Source: Roseomonas aeriglobus (GTDB taxonomy: Bacteria > Pseudomonadota > Alphaproteobacteria > Sphingomonadales > Sphingomonadaceae). Taken from it: a stretch of 64,000 nucleotides of DNA. Below are positions 1,932 through 59,412 of the stretch, piece after piece. The notes below the pieces were generated by a model. It was not told the DNA's origin. It worked only from the letters and a program-made list of their open reading frames with translations, and searched no databases. The stretch lies in NCBI GenBank assembly GCA_016937575.1, contig JAFHKN010000002.1, positions 930,001 through 994,000 of the forward strand. Direction: 5' to 3'. Position numbers and translations under genes: made by a program. The stretch's first letter is position 1. The number at the start of each line of letters is the position of its first letter.

Positions 1932-4183
<2,252 letters not shown>

Positions 4184-18331: not shown

Positions 18332-18536
18332 TAAGGTCCCTCGCCTCTGCGCGCAGGGGAGAGGGTTGCGAAGACTTGGGCTCGAAGAGCCTTCGTCGGA
18401 GCTGGGTGAGGGGTGATGCGAGCCGTAGGCTCGCGCGGAGCGGCGCTCCGCTCTACCCCTCACCCAACCTACGCTAGGCGGCATAGCCGCCAAGCTTCGG
18501 TATCCCTCGCCCCTAGCAAGGGGCGAGGGCAATGGA
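18332..18536 (+). repeat. Palindromic extragenic repeat before mmsB
   Basis: A composite element fills the gap between the hydratase and mmsB. CCCTCGCC..AGGGGAGAGGG lies at its left edge. Complementary GGTGAGGGG and CCCCTCACC flank a hairpin with CCGTAGGCTCGCGCGGAGCG. At its right edge CCCTCGCCCC..GGGGCGAGGG forms a closing stem. It is similar in layout to 56152-56311. The mmsB ribosome site (GGAGAG) lies just beyond its right edge. Confidence 0.8.
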
Positions 18537-19432: not shown

Positions 19433-19501
19433 GTTCCCCGGCGAAGGCCGGGGTCCAGTTGCCAGCGGGTCGAGACTGGACCCCGGCCTTCGCCGGGGAA
19501 C
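19433..19501 (+). repeat. Palindromic repeat (CCCCGGC-GAAG-GCCGGGG type)
   Basis: Two perfect 27-nt inverted arms (19433-19459 and 19475-19501) are separated by 15 nt. Each arm also forms its own hairpin CCCCGGC-GAAG-GCCGGGG and ends in GTCCAGT/ACTGGAC. The same unit occurs at 59311-59412 with a 50-nt spacer and at 54875-55250 with a gene as spacer. Here it follows the mmsB stop by 5 bp and may act as its terminator. Confidence 0.9.
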
Positions 19502-21624: not shown

Positions 21625-22145
21625 TGGCCACTGCCCCTCAGGACACGCTGCGCAAGGTCTTCGTCGACGGCCTGCGCAACGCCCATGCCCTGGAAAATCA
21701 GGCGATGGCGCTGATGGACCGGCAGATCGAGCATCTGGCCAATTACGCCGACGTCGAGCAGCAGCTGCGCGCTCACCGCGGTGAGACCGAACGCCAGATC
21801 GAACGGCTGGAGACGATCCTCGAAAGTCTCGGTGAAAGCCCTTCGATGGTGAAGGACATGGCGCTGACGATGAGCGGCAACATGGCCGCGCTCGGCCACA
21901 CCTTCGCGCCTGATGAAATCTTGAAGAACAGCTTCGCCAACTATGCCTTCGAGAGCTTCGAAGTGGCGAGCTACACCGCCTTGTGCGTGCTGGCCGAGGA
22001 TGGCGGCTATACCGAAGCGCTGCCGCTGTTGAAGCAGACGCTGGGCGAGGAGCAGGCGATGCAGAACTGGGTGGCGAAGACGCTGCCGGTGGTGGTGCGG
22101 AAATATGTCGACCGACGCGCGGAAGGGGAGACGGCGAGTCACTAA
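21624..22145 (+). CDS. YciE/YciF (DUF892) ferritin-like protein
   Basis: This 173-residue all-helical protein resembles the YciE/YciF DUF892 family of ferritin-like stress proteins. It shows the typical start DTLRKVFVDGLRNAHALE, EQQLRAHRGETERQIERLET, and the late FESFEVASYTALCVLAEDGG with glutamates spaced for metal binding. YciE-type proteins are induced by osmotic and oxidative stress, and their biochemical role is unclear. It overlaps the Mn catalase stop and is followed by a strong hairpin with a T run. Confidence 0.88.
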   Translation: MATAPQDTLRKVFVDGLRNAHALENQAMALMDRQIEHLANYADVEQQLRAHRGETERQIERLETILESLGESPSMVKDMALTMSGNMAALGHTFAPDEILKNSFANYAFESFEVASYTALCVLAEDGGYTEALPLLKQTLGEEQAMQNWVAKTLPVVVRKYVDRRAEGETASH

Positions 22146-22250
22146 TCTCCCTCTCCCTTTCAGGGGAGAGGGGCGGTGCCGCGCGCTTCGGTCCCCGTGG
22201 AACCCCTCTTTCTCCCAAACCCTCTCCCCTGAAGGGGAGAGGCTTTTTAA
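22146..22250 (+). terminator. Repeat with terminator-like hairpin
   Basis: A CCCTCTCCC-type repeat fills the space between convergent genes. Its right arm forms the hairpin CCTCTCCCCT / GA / AGGGGAGAGG (22221-22242), followed by CTTTTT. This is a good intrinsic terminator for the Mn catalase operon. The left arm at about 22147-22172 (TCTCCCTCTCCC..GGGGAGAGGGG) is the mate of the repeat. Confidence 0.75.
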
Positions 22251-22260
22251 TGCCCCGCTT

Positions 22261-53499: not shown

Positions 53500-54870
<1,371 letters not shown>

Positions 54871-54874
54871 CCTC

Positions 54875-55250
54875 CACCCCGGCGAAGGCCGGGGTTCAGT
54901 GGCGGAGGCCGTGCGATGGATGATCAGGCCTGCGTTTACATTATGTCGAGTTCGAGAAACGGCACGCTGTATCTCGGCTCGACGGTGAACCTGTCGAAGC
55001 GCGTCTGGGAACATCGCAACGGCGTCGTCGATGGGTTCACAAAGAGATACGGCTGCAAGCGTCTCGTATGGTACGAGTTTGCAGGTAGCTGGGACGCCGC
55101 ACGGCAGCGCGAGCTGCAAATGAAGGAGTGGAAGCGCGCCTGGAAGGTGCGAGAAATCGAAGGGCTAAATCCCGATTGGGACGACCTCTACGATCGTATC
55201 GCCCAACCATGATCGTTTTCCCCACTGGACCCCGGCCTGCGCCGGGGTGG
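54875..55250 (+). repeat. Palindromic repeat pair enclosing a GIY-YIG gene
   Basis: The left arm (54875-54902), CACCCCGGC..GCCGGGGTTCAGTGG, and the right arm (55222-55250), CCACTGGACCCCGGCC..GCCGGGGTGG, are inverted copies that differ at two of 28 positions. The unit is the same as at 19433-19501, where the arms are 15 nt apart, and at 59311-59412. Here the space between the arms holds the whole GIY-YIG gene and little else. Confidence 0.85.
54916..55212 (+). CDS. GIY-YIG endonuclease domain protein
   Basis: This is a 98-residue single-domain nuclease of the YhbQ/UPF0213 kind. The motif halves are VYI (7-9) and YLG (19-21), followed by Arg29 in SKRVWEHR and the catalytic Glu66 in RQRELQMKEW. 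It has no added DNA-binding domain. Its base composition is lower in GC than the neighbours. Small GIY-YIG genes of this type are often multicopy in alphaproteobacteria. The gene sits between the two arms of a palindromic repeat inserted between mdh and sucD, so it may be part of the repeat's mobility or a passenger. Activity is not proven. Confidence 0.88.
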   Translation: MDDQACVYIMSSSRNGTLYLGSTVNLSKRVWEHRNGVVDGFTKRYGCKRLVWYEFAGSWDAARQRELQMKEWKRAWKVREIEGLNPDWDDLYDRIAQP

Positions 55251-55266: not shown

Positions 55267-56151
55267 ATGAGCATCCTCGTCAACAAGAACACCAAGGTCA
55301 TCACCCAGGGCATGACCGGGGAGACCGGCAGCTTCCACACCAAGGCGGCGCTGGATTACGGCACGCAGATGGTGGGCGGCGTCACGCCGGGTAAGGGCGG
55401 TACCGAGCATCTGGGGCTCCCGGTGTTCAACACCGTTGCCGAAGCGGTGACCAAGACCGGCGCCGATGCCAGCGTCATCTACGTGCCGCCGCCCTTCGCT
55501 GCGGATTCGATTCTAGAAGCGATCGACGCCGAAGTGCCGCTGATCGTCTGCATCACCGAGGGCATTCCGGTGCTCGACATGGTAAAGGTGAAGCGAGCGC
55601 TGTCAGGCAGCAAGTCGCGCCTGATCGGTCCGAACTGCCCGGGCGTGCTGACGCCGGGCGAATGCAAGATCGGCATCATGCCGGGCAGCATCTTCTCGAA
55701 GGGTTCGGTCGGCGTCGTGTCGCGCTCGGGCACGCTAACCTATGAAGCGGTGTTCCAGACGACCAACGCTGGCCTCGGCCAGACCACTGCGGTCGGCATC
55801 GGCGGCGATCCGGTCAACGGCACCAACTTCATCGACGTGCTGGAGCTGTTCCTGGCCGACGACGCGACCGAATCCATCATCATGATCGGCGAAATCGGCG
55901 GCGACGCCGAGGAGCAGGCCGCGCAGTTCCTGATCGACGAGGCCAAGCGCGGCCGCAAGAAGCCGATGGCCGGCTTCATTGCGGGCCGCACGGCGCCTCC
56001 GGGCCGTCGCATGGGCCACGCCGGCGCCATCGTGTCGGGCGGCAAGGGCGACGCCGAAAGCAAGATCGCGGCGATGGAAGCTGCCGGCATCAAGGTCGCG
56101 GATTCGCCCAGCCTGCTGGGCGAGACGCTGGTCTCGGTGTTGAGCAAGTAA
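55267..56151 (+). CDS. sucD: Succinyl-CoA synthetase alpha subunit
   Basis: This subunit binds CoA and carries the phosphohistidine that transfers phosphate between succinyl phosphate and the nucleotide. It has 294 residues. [60 protein letters not shown] and [16 protein letters not shown] with active-site His251 are conserved. The beta subunit gene sucC, which usually lies directly upstream, is not here; the upstream genes are the GIY-YIG insert and mdh. The sucC must lie elsewhere in the genome. Confidence 0.96.
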
Positions 56152-56311
56152 ACCTTCTCCAGAGGGAGAAGGATACCGCAGCTTGCGAGCTTGCTCGCTA
56201 GCGGAGGTTGGATGAGGGGATCGTGCGCTTGATAGCGGGATACCCTCACCCAGCTACGACTAAGGCCTTTCAGGCCTAAGTCTGCGCAACCCTCTCCCAC
56301 GGGGAGAGGGG
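56152..56311 (+). repeat. Palindromic extragenic repeat between sucD and sucA
   Basis: The left arm is CCTTCTCC..GGAGAAGG near 56153-56172. Complementary GGATGAGGGG and CCCTCACC lie in the middle, a hairpin AGGCCTTTCAGGCCT at about 56262-56276, and the closing arm CCCTCTCCC..GGGGAGAGGGG is at 56291-56311. Its layout matches 18332-18536. The sucA ribosome site lies directly after it. Confidence 0.8.
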
Positions 56312-56327: not shown

Positions 56328-59294
56328 ATGGGCTACGAAGGCCAGGATTTCTCGGATATCGCCGGCGGCGTTTCGCCGGCGTTCGTCGACACGCTCTATG
56401 CGAAGTACAAGAGCGACCCGTCGGGCCTCGAACCCGGTTGGCGTGACTTCTTCGAAGGGCTGGAGGGCGCCGCGACGGGGCCGTCGTGGGCCAAGACGAA
56501 CTGGCCGCTGTCGGAGACGGATGCGCTCACCGCCGGGCTCGACCCGACGCAAATGGAGCCCGCGCCCAAGCCCGCGAAGCCCGGTGCAAAGCCCGCGCCC
56601 GCCGCCGCCCCGGCCGCCTCGCCTGATGCCATCCGCGCCGCGGCCGATGCGTCGATCCGCGCGATGACGCTGATCCGCACCTACCGCGTCCGCGGTCACC
56701 TGGCAGCGAACCTCGATCCGCTGGGCCTGTCGACCCGCGAGCTGCCGGACGATCTGAAGACCGAATATCACGGCTTCACCGACGACCAGATCGACACGCC
56801 GGTGTATCTCGGCGGCGTGCTCGGCCTGCAGACCGCGACGATCCGCGAGCTCGTCGATATCCTTCGCAAGAACTACTGCGGCAATGTCGGACTGGAATAT
56901 ATGCACATCGCGGACGTGGAGGAGCGCAAGTTCCTGCAGGACCGGATGGAGGGCCGCGACAAGGCGATTCAGTTCACGCCCGACGGCAAGAAGGCGATCC
57001 TCAGCAAGGTGATCCATGCCGAGGGGTACGAGAAGTTCCTCGGAAAGAAATACGTCGGCACCAAGCGTTTCGGCCTGGACGGCGGCGAGAGCATGATCCC
57101 GGCGCTGGAAAGCGTCATCAAATACGGCGGCCAGCAGGGCGTCCGCGAGATCGTTTATGGCATGGCTCACCGTGGCCGCCTGAACGTCCTCGCCAACGTG
57201 ATGGCCAAGCCCTACCGCGCGATCTTCCACGAATTCTCGGGCGGCTCGTCCAATCCTGAGGACGTCGGCGGTTCGGGCGACGTGAAGTACCACCTCGGCA
57301 CCTCGACCGACCGCGAGTTCGACGGGATCAAGGTCCATATGTCGCTGGTCGCCAACCCGTCGCACCTCGAGGCGGCGGACCCGGTCGTGCTGGGCAAGAC
57401 CCGCGCGATCCAGACGCTGGCCAACGACCTCAATGAACACAAGGCGTCGCTGCCGGTGCTGATCCACGGCGACGCGGCGTTCGCGGGCCAGGGGATCGTC
57501 TGGGAATGCCTCGGCTTCTCGGGGATTCGCGGTTACAACACCGGCGGTTGCGTCCACTTCATCATCAACAACCAGGTCGGCTTCACCACCAGCCCGCAGT
57601 TCGCGCGTAGCTCGCCGTACCCGTCGGACGTGGCGAAGGGCGTCCAGGCGCCGATCTTCCACGTCAATGGCGACGATCCCGAAGCCGTGACCTTCGCCAC
57701 CAAGATGGCGATCGAGTTCCGCCAGACCTTCCACCGCGATGTCGTTATCGACATGTGGTGCTATCGCCGCTTCGGCCACAACGAAGGCGACGAACCATCG
57801 TTCACCCAGCCGCTGATGTACGCCAAGATCAAGCAGCACCCCGGTGTCAGCAAGATCTACGGCGATCGGCTGATGGCGGAAGGCGTCGTCGACCAGGCGT
57901 GGATCGACGAACAGTGGAAGCAGTTCGACACGCTGATGGAAGGCGAGTTCGAGGCCGGTGCCTCGTACAAGCCGAACAAGGCGGACTGGTTCGCCGGCCG
58001 CTGGTCGGGCCTGCATGCGCCCGCCGACGGCGAAAGCAGCCGCCGCAACGTCGAGACGGGCATCGACAAGAAGCTGTTCGACAGCCTCGGCCGCACGCTG
58101 ACGACGGTTCCGGACAGCATCCAGATCCACAAGACGCTGTCGCGCGTGCTCGACGCCAAGCGGAACATGTTCGCCAGCGGTGAGAATTTCGACTGGGCGA
58201 CCGGCGAAGCGCTCGCGTTCGGCTCGCTGATGTCGGAAGGCTATGGCGTCCGCCTGTCGGGGCAGGATTCGGGCCGCGGCACGTTCAGCCAGCGTCACGC
58301 GGTGTGGGTCGACCAGACCGATGAGCATAAATATGTGCCGCTGACGACGCTGCCCCATGGCCGCTTCGAAGTGCTCGATTCGCCGCTCAGCGAATATGGC
58401 GTGCTCGGCTTCGAATATGGCTTCGCGCTTGCCGACCCGAAGACGCTCGTGCTGTGGGAGGCGCAGTTCGGCGATTTCGTGAACGGCGCGCAGATCATGA
58501 TCGACCAGTTCATCACGAGCGGTGAGTCGAAGTGGCTCCGCGCCAACGGCCTCGTGATGCTGCTGCCGCATGGTTATGAGGGGCAGGGGCCGGAGCATAG
58601 CTCGGCGCGTCCGGAACGCTTCCTCCAGGCCTGTGCGCAGGACAATATCCAGGTCGCCAACTGCACTACGCCGGCGAACTATTTCCACCTGCTGCGCCGG
58701 CAGATGCACCGGACGTTCCGCAAGCCGCTGGTCATCATGACGCCGAAGTCGCTGCTGCGGCACAAACTCGCAGTAAGCAAGGCGGAGGACTTCCTGGGCG
58801 ACAGCCACTTCCGCCGCATCCTGTCGGACCCGAAGGCGCCGTCGGACGCCAATACAAAGCGCCTCGTCCTTTGCACCGGCAAGGTCAGCTACGACCTGAT
58901 GGAGGCACGCGACGCCGCGGGCGATACGGATACGCAGATCGTCCGCATCGAACAGCTCTATCCCTTCCCGGGCGAGCCGCTGGCCGAGCGCATCCGCAAC
59001 ATGCCGAACCTCGAAGAGATCATCTGGGCGCAGGAAGAGCCGAAGAACAACGGTTACTGGTTCTTCGTCGAGCCGCTGATCGAGGAAGCGCTGGCCGACG
59101 CCGGCTGCCGTATCCGCCGCGCGCGCTACGCCGGCCGTGCGGCCTCCGCCTCGCCGGCAACGGGCCTGATGAAGCGGCACCAGCTCGAACAGGCGGCGCT
59201 CGTCGCCGACGCGCTGGGCCACAATGTTCGCGAGGAAATCCGCCGCGCGCAGAAGAGTGAAGACCCCAAGACGACCGGGAAGGCTGGATCGTAA
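56328..59294 (+). CDS. sucA: 2-oxoglutarate dehydrogenase E1
   Basis: This thiamine-diphosphate enzyme decarboxylates 2-oxoglutarate and passes the succinyl group to SucB. It has 988 residues from the ATG at 56328, with GTGAGGA 7 bp upstream; a GTG at 56322 is less well placed. The N-terminal segment GYEGQDFSDIAGGVSPAFVD is usual in this family for E2 binding. GMAHRGRLNVLANVMAKPYR, HGDAAFAGQGIVWECLG, GGCVHFIINNQVGFTTSP and YRRFGHNEGDEPSFTQP hold the ThDP and active-site residues. A linker at about 70-105 is Ala/Pro-rich. It is in the mdh/suc/lpd block, next to sucB. Confidence 0.97.
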   Translation: MGYEGQDFSDIAGGVSPAFVDTLYAKYKSDPSGLEPGWRDFFEGLEGAATGPSWAKTNWPLSETDALTAGLDPTQMEPAPKPAKPGAKPAPAAAPAASPDAIRAAADASIRAMTLIRTYRVRGHLAANLDPLGLSTRELPDDLKTEYHGFTDDQIDTPVYLGGVLGLQTATIRELVDILRKNYCGNVGLEYMHIADVEERKFLQDRMEGRDKAIQFTPDGKKAILSKVIHAEGYEKFLGKKYVGTKRFGLDGGESMIPALESVIKYGGQQGVREIVYGMAHRGRLNVLANVMAKPYRAIFHEFSGGSSNPEDVGGSGDVKYHLGTSTDREFDGIKVHMSLVANPSHLEAADPVVLGKTRAIQTLANDLNEHKASLPVLIHGDAAFAGQGIVWECLGFSGIRGYNTGGCVHFIINNQVGFTTSPQFARSSPYPSDVAKGVQAPIFHVNGDDPEAVTFATKMAIEFRQTFHRDVVIDMWCYRRFGHNEGDEPSFTQPLMYAKIKQHPGVSKIYGDRLMAEGVVDQAWIDEQWKQFDTLMEGEFEAGASYKPNKADWFAGRWSGLHAPADGESSRRNVETGIDKKLFDSLGRTLTTVPDSIQIHKTLSRVLDAKRNMFASGENFDWATGEALAFGSLMSEGYGVRLSGQDSGRGTFSQRHAVWVDQTDEHKYVPLTTLPHGRFEVLDSPLSEYGVLGFEYGFALADPKTLVLWEAQFGDFVNGAQIMIDQFITSGESKWLRANGLVMLLPHGYEGQGPEHSSARPERFLQACAQDNIQVANCTTPANYFHLLRRQMHRTFRKPLVIMTPKSLLRHKLAVSKAEDFLGDSHFRRILSDPKAPSDANTKRLVLCTGKVSYDLMEARDAAGDTDTQIVRIEQLYPFPGEPLAERIRNMPNLEEIIWAQEEPKNNGYWFFVEPLIEEALADAGCRIRRARYAGRAASASPATGLMKRHQLEQAALVADALGHNVREEIRRAQKSEDPKTTGKAGS

Positions 59295-59310
59295 GCTAAG
59301 CTGATCCTGT

Positions 59311-59412
59311 GCCCTGGCGAAGGCCGGGGTCCAGGTTCGTGATGTTGAGTTGGATAGCGATACGGTTCACTTCGACCCGATCGCAACTGGGCCCCGGCCT
59401 TCGCCGGGGAAC
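59311..59412 (+). repeat. Palindromic repeat (CCCCGGC-GAAG-GCCGGGG type)
   Basis: The left arm (59311-59335), GCCCTGGCGAAGGCCGGGGT and CCAGG, and the right arm (59386-59412), ACTGGGCCCCGGCC..CGCCGGGGAAC, are 50 nt apart. It is a relative of 19433-19501 and of the pair around the GIY-YIG gene. It fills the sucA-sucB gap. Confidence 0.85.

Follow-up and report, generated by a model that had tools for sequence, protein, structure and literature searches.

In the system of REP-associated tyrosine transposases (RAYT/REPtron; TnpA-REP, with GTAG REPs), the gene of a cutting enzyme with an HUH/Y1 domain is bounded by inverted repetitive extragenic palindromic (REP) sequences of its own type, and gene-less pairs of these repeats lie elsewhere. 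The CGTC REPs form a superfamily which, according to Di Nocera et al. (2013, PMC3733652), is known from five phyla, includes the many-copy dRS3 repeat of Neisseria, was said in 2013 to be without a dedicated transposase, and flanked no tyrosine transposase gene in the species listed. Here we analyze a stretch of 64,000 nucleotides from Roseomonas aeriglobus (assembly GCA_016937575.1, contig JAFHKN010000002.1, positions 930,001–994,000; hereafter the window), in which a gene for a 98-aa protein is likewise bounded by inverted REPs, while the enzyme it encodes is a predicted hydrolytic nuclease of the GIY-YIG fold.

The closest known system is Ssn of Neisseria, so the core idea is partly known. 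Ssn proteins, reportedly presented in Nature Communications in 2025, are said to be small single-domain GIY-YIG nucleases whose target is a many-copy Neisseria sequence, cut when single-stranded, and to have thousands of homologues; that work reportedly concerns cutting specificity, transformation, and tools, and the Neisseria enzyme is said to change natural transformation. The layout in the window genome is of the same type, with a repeat around the gene and many dispersed copies, and the homologue of N. gonorrhoeae (intact frame, 46% identity over 97% of the query), which may be the published Ssn, is likewise REP-flanked, with CGTCATTCCCGCGCAGGCGGGAATC on both sides. What would go beyond the Ssn work, as it is reported, is the link to CGTC REPs at large, the matching of repeat type and protein, the copies of the cassette, and a second subfamily. 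No title or abstract among the matches listed connected GIY-YIG nucleases with REPs; the link may nonetheless have been published already. We propose, with a probability of about 0.6, that the cassette is a nuclease–REP unit, that is, an Ssn-like GIY-YIG gene bounded by inverted copies of a REP that its product recognizes, working in the manner of a RAYT and its REPs.

The single-domain nuclease gene (54916..55212, plus strand) stands free between two open frames and fills the 319 nt that separate an upstream REP arm (54874..54902, plus strand) from an inverted downstream arm (55222..55250, minus strand). The arms measure 29 nt and are 93% complementary, with two mismatches, which bears out the inverted 28-nt pair with a 98-aa GIY-YIG gene as its spacer reported in an initial annotation made from the letters of this DNA. 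A candidate ribosome-binding site, GGAGG, is seen by eye at 54904–54908, just inside the upstream arm. The upstream arm has the stem ACCCCGGC/GCCGGGGT and the loop GAAG, the downstream arm has the loop GCAG, and both tails face the gene, TCAG from the upstream and CCAG from the downstream side, fitting the CCA-like tail of CGTC REPs. By definition, these REPs have a stem of 8–9 bp, a loop of 4–5 nt, an unpaired CGTC (or TGTC, CCTC) tag at one end, and a CCA-like tail (PMC3733652); the window arms, with 8-bp stems, 4-nt loops, such tails, and an inverted arrangement, resemble them and differ in lacking the strict tag and in having a GIY-YIG gene as a regular partner. The CGTC tag is intact in the congener locus L176 and in many relatives, whose arms have the tag on the outer side, in many cases an AT at the stem base, a 4–5-nt loop, and a CCA tail towards the gene.

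The protein matches PF01541 with 54 bits (cut-off 22.6); this is the sole Pfam family matched, and no Y1/HUH tyrosine transposase domain was found in it. The hallmark residues of the GIY-YIG domain are Y, Y, R, E, and N, and the corresponding Y8, Y19, R29, E66, and N85, together with H33, are invariant across 27 sequences; in a set of 37 sequences, Y19, H33, and E66 remain invariant and Y8, R29, and N85 occur in at least 90%. The predicted structure is a plain single-domain GIY-YIG fold (mean predicted local distance difference test score, pLDDT, 93.9). The nearest solved folds are UPF0213 (BH0048), Slx1, and UvrC N-terminal GIY-YIG domains, found with weak Foldseek scores (best E 2.2e-3) and only weakly similar to the window protein in sequence; Slx1 and UvrC are not known to be associated with REPs. 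The closest named proteins come from Sphingomonas (P0003, S. donggukensis, 85%), and the family whose genomes are compared below is accordingly taken to be Sphingomonadaceae. A homing endonuclease of a group I intron or intein was rejected as a candidate, as the gene lies outside any intron or intein and the TIGR01453 match is far under the cut-off.

The pairing of such nucleases with REPs is well supported and is not chance. For each gene, the two 250-nt flanks were compared and their best ungapped inverted repeat was scored (threshold 18; open reading frames, ORFs, by a simple longest-frame rule). The family set comprised 80 stretches, each 20 kb long at most, that surround relatives and hold 81 nuclease genes; they were taken from the top of the homologue listing, without the own genome and about 10 other places, mostly on short contigs. 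The threshold was reached by 56 of the 81 nuclease genes versus 3 of 1356 neighbouring ORFs and 1 of 577 small ORFs. An identical strict hairpin type stood on both flanks of 48/81 nuclease genes versus 6/1356 neighbours, and a strict hairpin on at least one flank of 70/81 versus 219/1356 control ORFs. Among loci of the GTDB collection, where at least 583 stretches were confirmed and the 80 that fitted a Neisseria-led alignment best were used (75 with both flanks), 44/75 scored at least 18, versus 10/694 neighbouring ORFs (6/338 small); according to their titles, they stem from beta-, gamma-, alpha-, and deltaproteobacteria, Planctomycetota, Anaerolineae, Elusimicrobia, and Nitrospira, among others. 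The initial annotation would have called the link chance if other copies of the gene mostly lacked flanking repeats or if the repeats were equally frequent around unrelated genes; neither holds in either collection, and the survey of flanks that it suggested leaves the link standing. Of 145 typed genes, a number that counts orthologs of one junction, 104 have both tails pointing inward. In eleven further loci from a plasmid collection, the same layout with other stems was found in Azospirillum, Aeromonas, two Shinella, Rhizobium CIAT894, Neorhizobium, and Novosphingobium, weaker repeats only in Planktothrix and S. meliloti, and no flanking repeat in Photobacterium and R. tumorigenes.

The type of repeat follows the protein. 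When flanks were typed by loop and inner stem, a single type stood on both sides of 76 of 99 family-set genes; another 21 were typed on just one side, and 2 on neither, the last two showing other REP-like hairpins by eye. Pairs of genes from different genomes shared their type in 59/62 cases at 70% identity or more, 184/282 at 60–70%, 128/1211 at 50–60%, 59/1203 at 40–50%, and 7/51 under 40%, and the nearest relative in another genome had the same type for 60 of 76 genes (random expectation 0.16). Pairs within one genome shared it in 2/37 cases below 70% identity and in 3/4 at or above it. On the protein tree, repeat type changes 18 times by parsimony, versus at least 42 times with shuffled labels (300 shuffles). 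Since close pairs from different genomes share a type and diverged pairs from the same genome differ, the repeat tracks the protein, not the host; a cognate specificity of protein and repeat type is thus well supported by these comparisons, and from the matching we infer that the nuclease would recognize the REP that flanks it.

The window genome itself holds four GIY-YIG matches, and three of them each sit in a different repeat; the fourth, L003, in a 720-aa frame, is presumably uvrC. The repeat of the cassette is dispersed over 37 sites (up to two mismatches; 4.28-Mb genome; 0 sites for a reversed control), that of the L004 gene over 157, and that of the L002 gene over few. The 157-site repeat, the most numerous tested (own genome, C2), often occurs in pairs, 70 nt from start to start, which suggests a fixed two-arm element.

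Gene-less pairs of the cassette's REP occur within the window as well. The pair at 19433-19459/19475-19501 has perfect 27-nt arms around the 15-nt spacer first annotated for 19433–19501. The pair annotated at 59311–59412 is equally real, with arms of 35 nt (59305-59339/59382-59416, 83%; the REP pair itself at 59309..59412) following a 990-aa ORF that ends at 59294, but its spacer is 42 nt and not 50. A further REP-like pair, absent from that first list, lies at 52312-52339/52358-52385 (28-nt arms, 93%, 18-nt spacer). The window also holds other long inverted repeats of different sequence, at 18357–18412 and 56243–56298, 3439–3564, and 22134–22258.

Across the family, the exact sequence CTGAACTYGTTTCAG occurs in 63 of 106 genomes with a match to the nuclease and in 6 of 43 without one; under a stricter cut, it occurs in 60/96 genomes with subfamily 1, to which the window gene belongs, and in 9/53 without. 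The stricter cut, set after the fact, moved 10 genomes with weak cross-matches out of subfamily 1. The L002 protein represents another GIY-YIG subfamily (L002:1495-1764, own genome C2:1697562-1697831; L312–L341), and an inverted repeat scoring at least 18 flanks 21 of its 29 usable loci (of 30), the control being the neighbouring ORFs of the subfamily-1 family set. The repeat is here mostly CCGTTCGTCCTGAGC...GTCGAAGGACG or a near variant, with L335, L337, and L340 more distant; its pattern, mostly CCGTTCGTCC[TC]GAGC...GTCGA[AG]GGACG, has neither a GTAG nor a CGTC tag, and 4 of its 10 sites in the own genome (up to two mismatches) lie at the L002 gene. Over 149 genomes, the core of this repeat, CGTTYGTCCYGAGC, goes with subfamily 2 (t 7.0) and not with subfamily 1 (t 0.9), whereas CTGAACTYGTTTCAG goes with subfamily 1 (t 4.5) more than with subfamily 2 (t 2.3). 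The looser cut agrees in direction, with t 3.7 and 1.8 for CTGAACTYGTTTCAG and t 1.2 (subfamily 1) and 6.4 (subfamily 2) for CGTTYGTCCYGAGC; the separation of the subfamilies is imperfect, as the cross term of CTGAACTYGTTTCAG is 1.8 under the looser cut and 2.3 under the stricter one. A generic count of GTCAT...ATCCA over the 149 genomes was set aside, many of the places being plainly not palindromic. The broader proposition, that small GIY-YIG nucleases are dedicated mobilizers of transposase-less REP superfamilies, each paralog serving its own type, with subfamily 1 for CGTC REPs from Neisseria to Planctomycetota and subfamily 2 for CCGTTCG-tagged repeats, has in our judgment an even chance of being right.

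Whole units are found at unrelated loci. In genome G111, the gene-plus-REP units of L204 and L205 are 94% alike over 525 nt, and that of L202 is 83–85% alike to both; outside the units, the surrounding sequences do not align. Further partial copies are listed in this genome, such as one at C1:498947 that is 90% alike over 435 nt. The matching flanks of the L205 site are 85 nt apart in the relative G211 and 775 nt apart in G111; by eye, G211 has no REP there, and the sequences are too diverged to define the ends at which an insertion sequence or MITE would leave a target-site duplication. G211 and G231 are the only informative relatives for this site; two more, L299 and L301, have the left flank but gave no right flank next to it. 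Many of the 26 genomes searched in the genus g96 contain an element of about 81 nt, composed of one REP and another hairpin, as at L205:9806-9886. As for other vehicles, phage carriage was rejected, since a search of phage records with the protein brought no match at E 1e-5. Plasmid spread was rejected too: all 34 matching plasmid records stay below 60% identity, and 33 of them are typed as non-mobilizable. Some of these records are chromosome-sized, NZ_CP119140.1 and NZ_AP026896.1 being among the examples (N. gonorrhoeae, 2.17 Mb; Aeromonas caviae, 4.9 Mb), and are probably mislabelled.

We consider that the repeats may be spread by the nuclease in the following way. The enzyme would cut its own REP, most likely bound as a single strand or folded hairpin, by analogy with what is said of Ssn and reported for a RAYT. 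The freed REP end would anneal to, or be copied from, another REP, and repair would copy REP-bounded DNA elsewhere. The gene with its arms, or the arms alone, would thereby reach new places, and the arms would be homogenized. For the RAYT side of the analogy, PMC3733652 describes one RAYT that recognizes its REP as a single strand or hairpin.

The alternative that survives best, although we regard it as unlikely, is that the repeats are binding or RNA-hairpin control sites, serving autoregulation, termination, or insulation, which co-evolve with the nuclease while no spread is driven. It would account for arms that hug the gene and co-vary, and the matching of site and protein is to be expected of any binding partner. 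By itself, it leaves unexplained the 37 and 157 dispersed sites, the abundance correlation, and the units at unrelated loci.

A second alternative sees REPs as landing hotspots for a small mobile nuclease gene, with something else spreading the repeats. The ORFs at 53815..54870 and 55267..56151 (both plus strand) on the 5' and 3' sides of the cassette are, to follow the initial label, presumably mdh (malate dehydrogenase; the true start may be further in) and sucD (succinyl-CoA ligase alpha). sucD was matched in 59 of 61 congener genomes, and both genes are kept in all 59 junctions read, a second sucD copy of G207 being left out. The nuclease gene is present in 24 of the 59, under purifying selection (median pN/pS 0.30 over 78 pairs of 13 full-length genes). 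Two further junctions hold remnants: L181 keeps a 3' piece of the gene between REPs, and L170 keeps a piece beside a degenerate REP, so gene loss can leave REPs behind. Cassette presence requires at least 12 changes on the sucD–mdh tree versus at least 15 when shuffled (200 shuffles) and is therefore partly inherited. The initial annotation held that the cassette arrived after the mdh–sucD order was set; this holds only in part, as the order is conserved and the cassette patchy, but gain and loss are indistinguishable at this site. The two arms of one species are alike at 0.913 versus 0.833 when permuted, a value reached by 0 of 2000 permutations, for 18 of the 24 gene-bearing junctions; the comparison omits the window, L162, and L164 (arm pattern failed or second match) and L125, L142, and L147, whose junction genes sit in another repeat type.

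Landing hotspots would agree with the repeated appearance of REPs and other inserts in the same intergenic spots: REP-like pairs without a gene are seen by eye at the mdh–sucD junctions of L127, L172, and L180, and in G231 (L300) the L205 site is filled by 266 nt that include a differently typed REP pair, which speaks against a nuclease–REP unit as well. The comparison of orthologous junctions for empty sites, however, brought out an identical clean 23-nt junction in L131, L132, and L135 with no REP by eye; together with the empty G211 site without a REP and with a repeat type that tracks the protein and not the host, this weighs against landing hotspots, which we hold to be less likely than control sites. 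The initial annotation had weighed nuclease-linked spread against a preferred landing site. The former gains from the type–protein matching, the G111 units at unrelated loci, and the abundance correlation, and the latter is disfavoured in spite of G231.

It is very improbable, in our view, that the nuclease serves above all to cut single-stranded DNA at REPs as this DNA enters the cell or replicates, with an effect on uptake or genome stability and with spread a by-product of selection for sites; the Neisseria Ssn enzyme reportedly alters natural transformation, but this function by itself leaves dispersed gene-plus-REP units unexplained. Least probable of all is that a RAYT (Y1/HUH transposase) moves the REPs in trans, with the GIY-YIG gene riding along or keeping the transposase in check. 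One Y1_Tnp match is present in the own genome, and CTGAACTYGTTTCAG occurs in 16/25 genomes with such a match versus 53/124 without (p 0.04), but 124 of the 149 family genomes have none, 9 of the 10 genomes richest in CTGAACTYGTTTCAG (at least 40 sites) lack it, mean counts are alike (9.3 and 8.8), and CGTC REPs flank no tyrosine transposase gene in the species listed in PMC3733652.

For the nuclease–REP unit itself, several observations weigh on the other side. In the family set, 25/81 genes fall under the inverted-repeat threshold and 11/81 lack a strict REP hairpin on either flank, and such a hairpin also stands on one side or both of 219 of the 1356 control ORFs. The window arms carry a degenerate CGTC tag, reading CTCC and TACC. 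At the mdh–sucD junction, L136 and L142 seem to carry broken genes; by eye, a downstream REP is missing in L125, and that of L147 is degenerate. The L004 gene (L004:1489-1725, C2:2702076 onward), partner of the 157-site repeat, is frameshifted, so that this repeat seems to outlive its nuclease. The G111 units are 83–94% alike and not near-identical, and the sequence shared by L204 and L205 extends some tens of bases past the arms, which may therefore not be the exact ends of the unit. CTGAACTYGTTTCAG is held by 6 of the 43 genomes without a detected gene, at up to 22 sites, in genome counts that take genomes as independent, with no kinship correction. Finally, the copying step would require host repair, as a hydrolytic nuclease is unable to rejoin DNA by itself.

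Taken together, if a GIY-YIG nuclease is the partner of the CGTC REPs, the question of their origin becomes testable with one 98-aa protein and short oligonucleotides, and the many natural protein–repeat pairs would provide a code book for cutting DNA, single-stranded or in hairpins, at specific sequences. If true, the model would add a second, hydrolytic-nuclease route of bacterial repeat spread alongside the RAYTs, and the pairing of nuclease and repeat may account for the multiplication of bacterial repeats for which no transposase is known.
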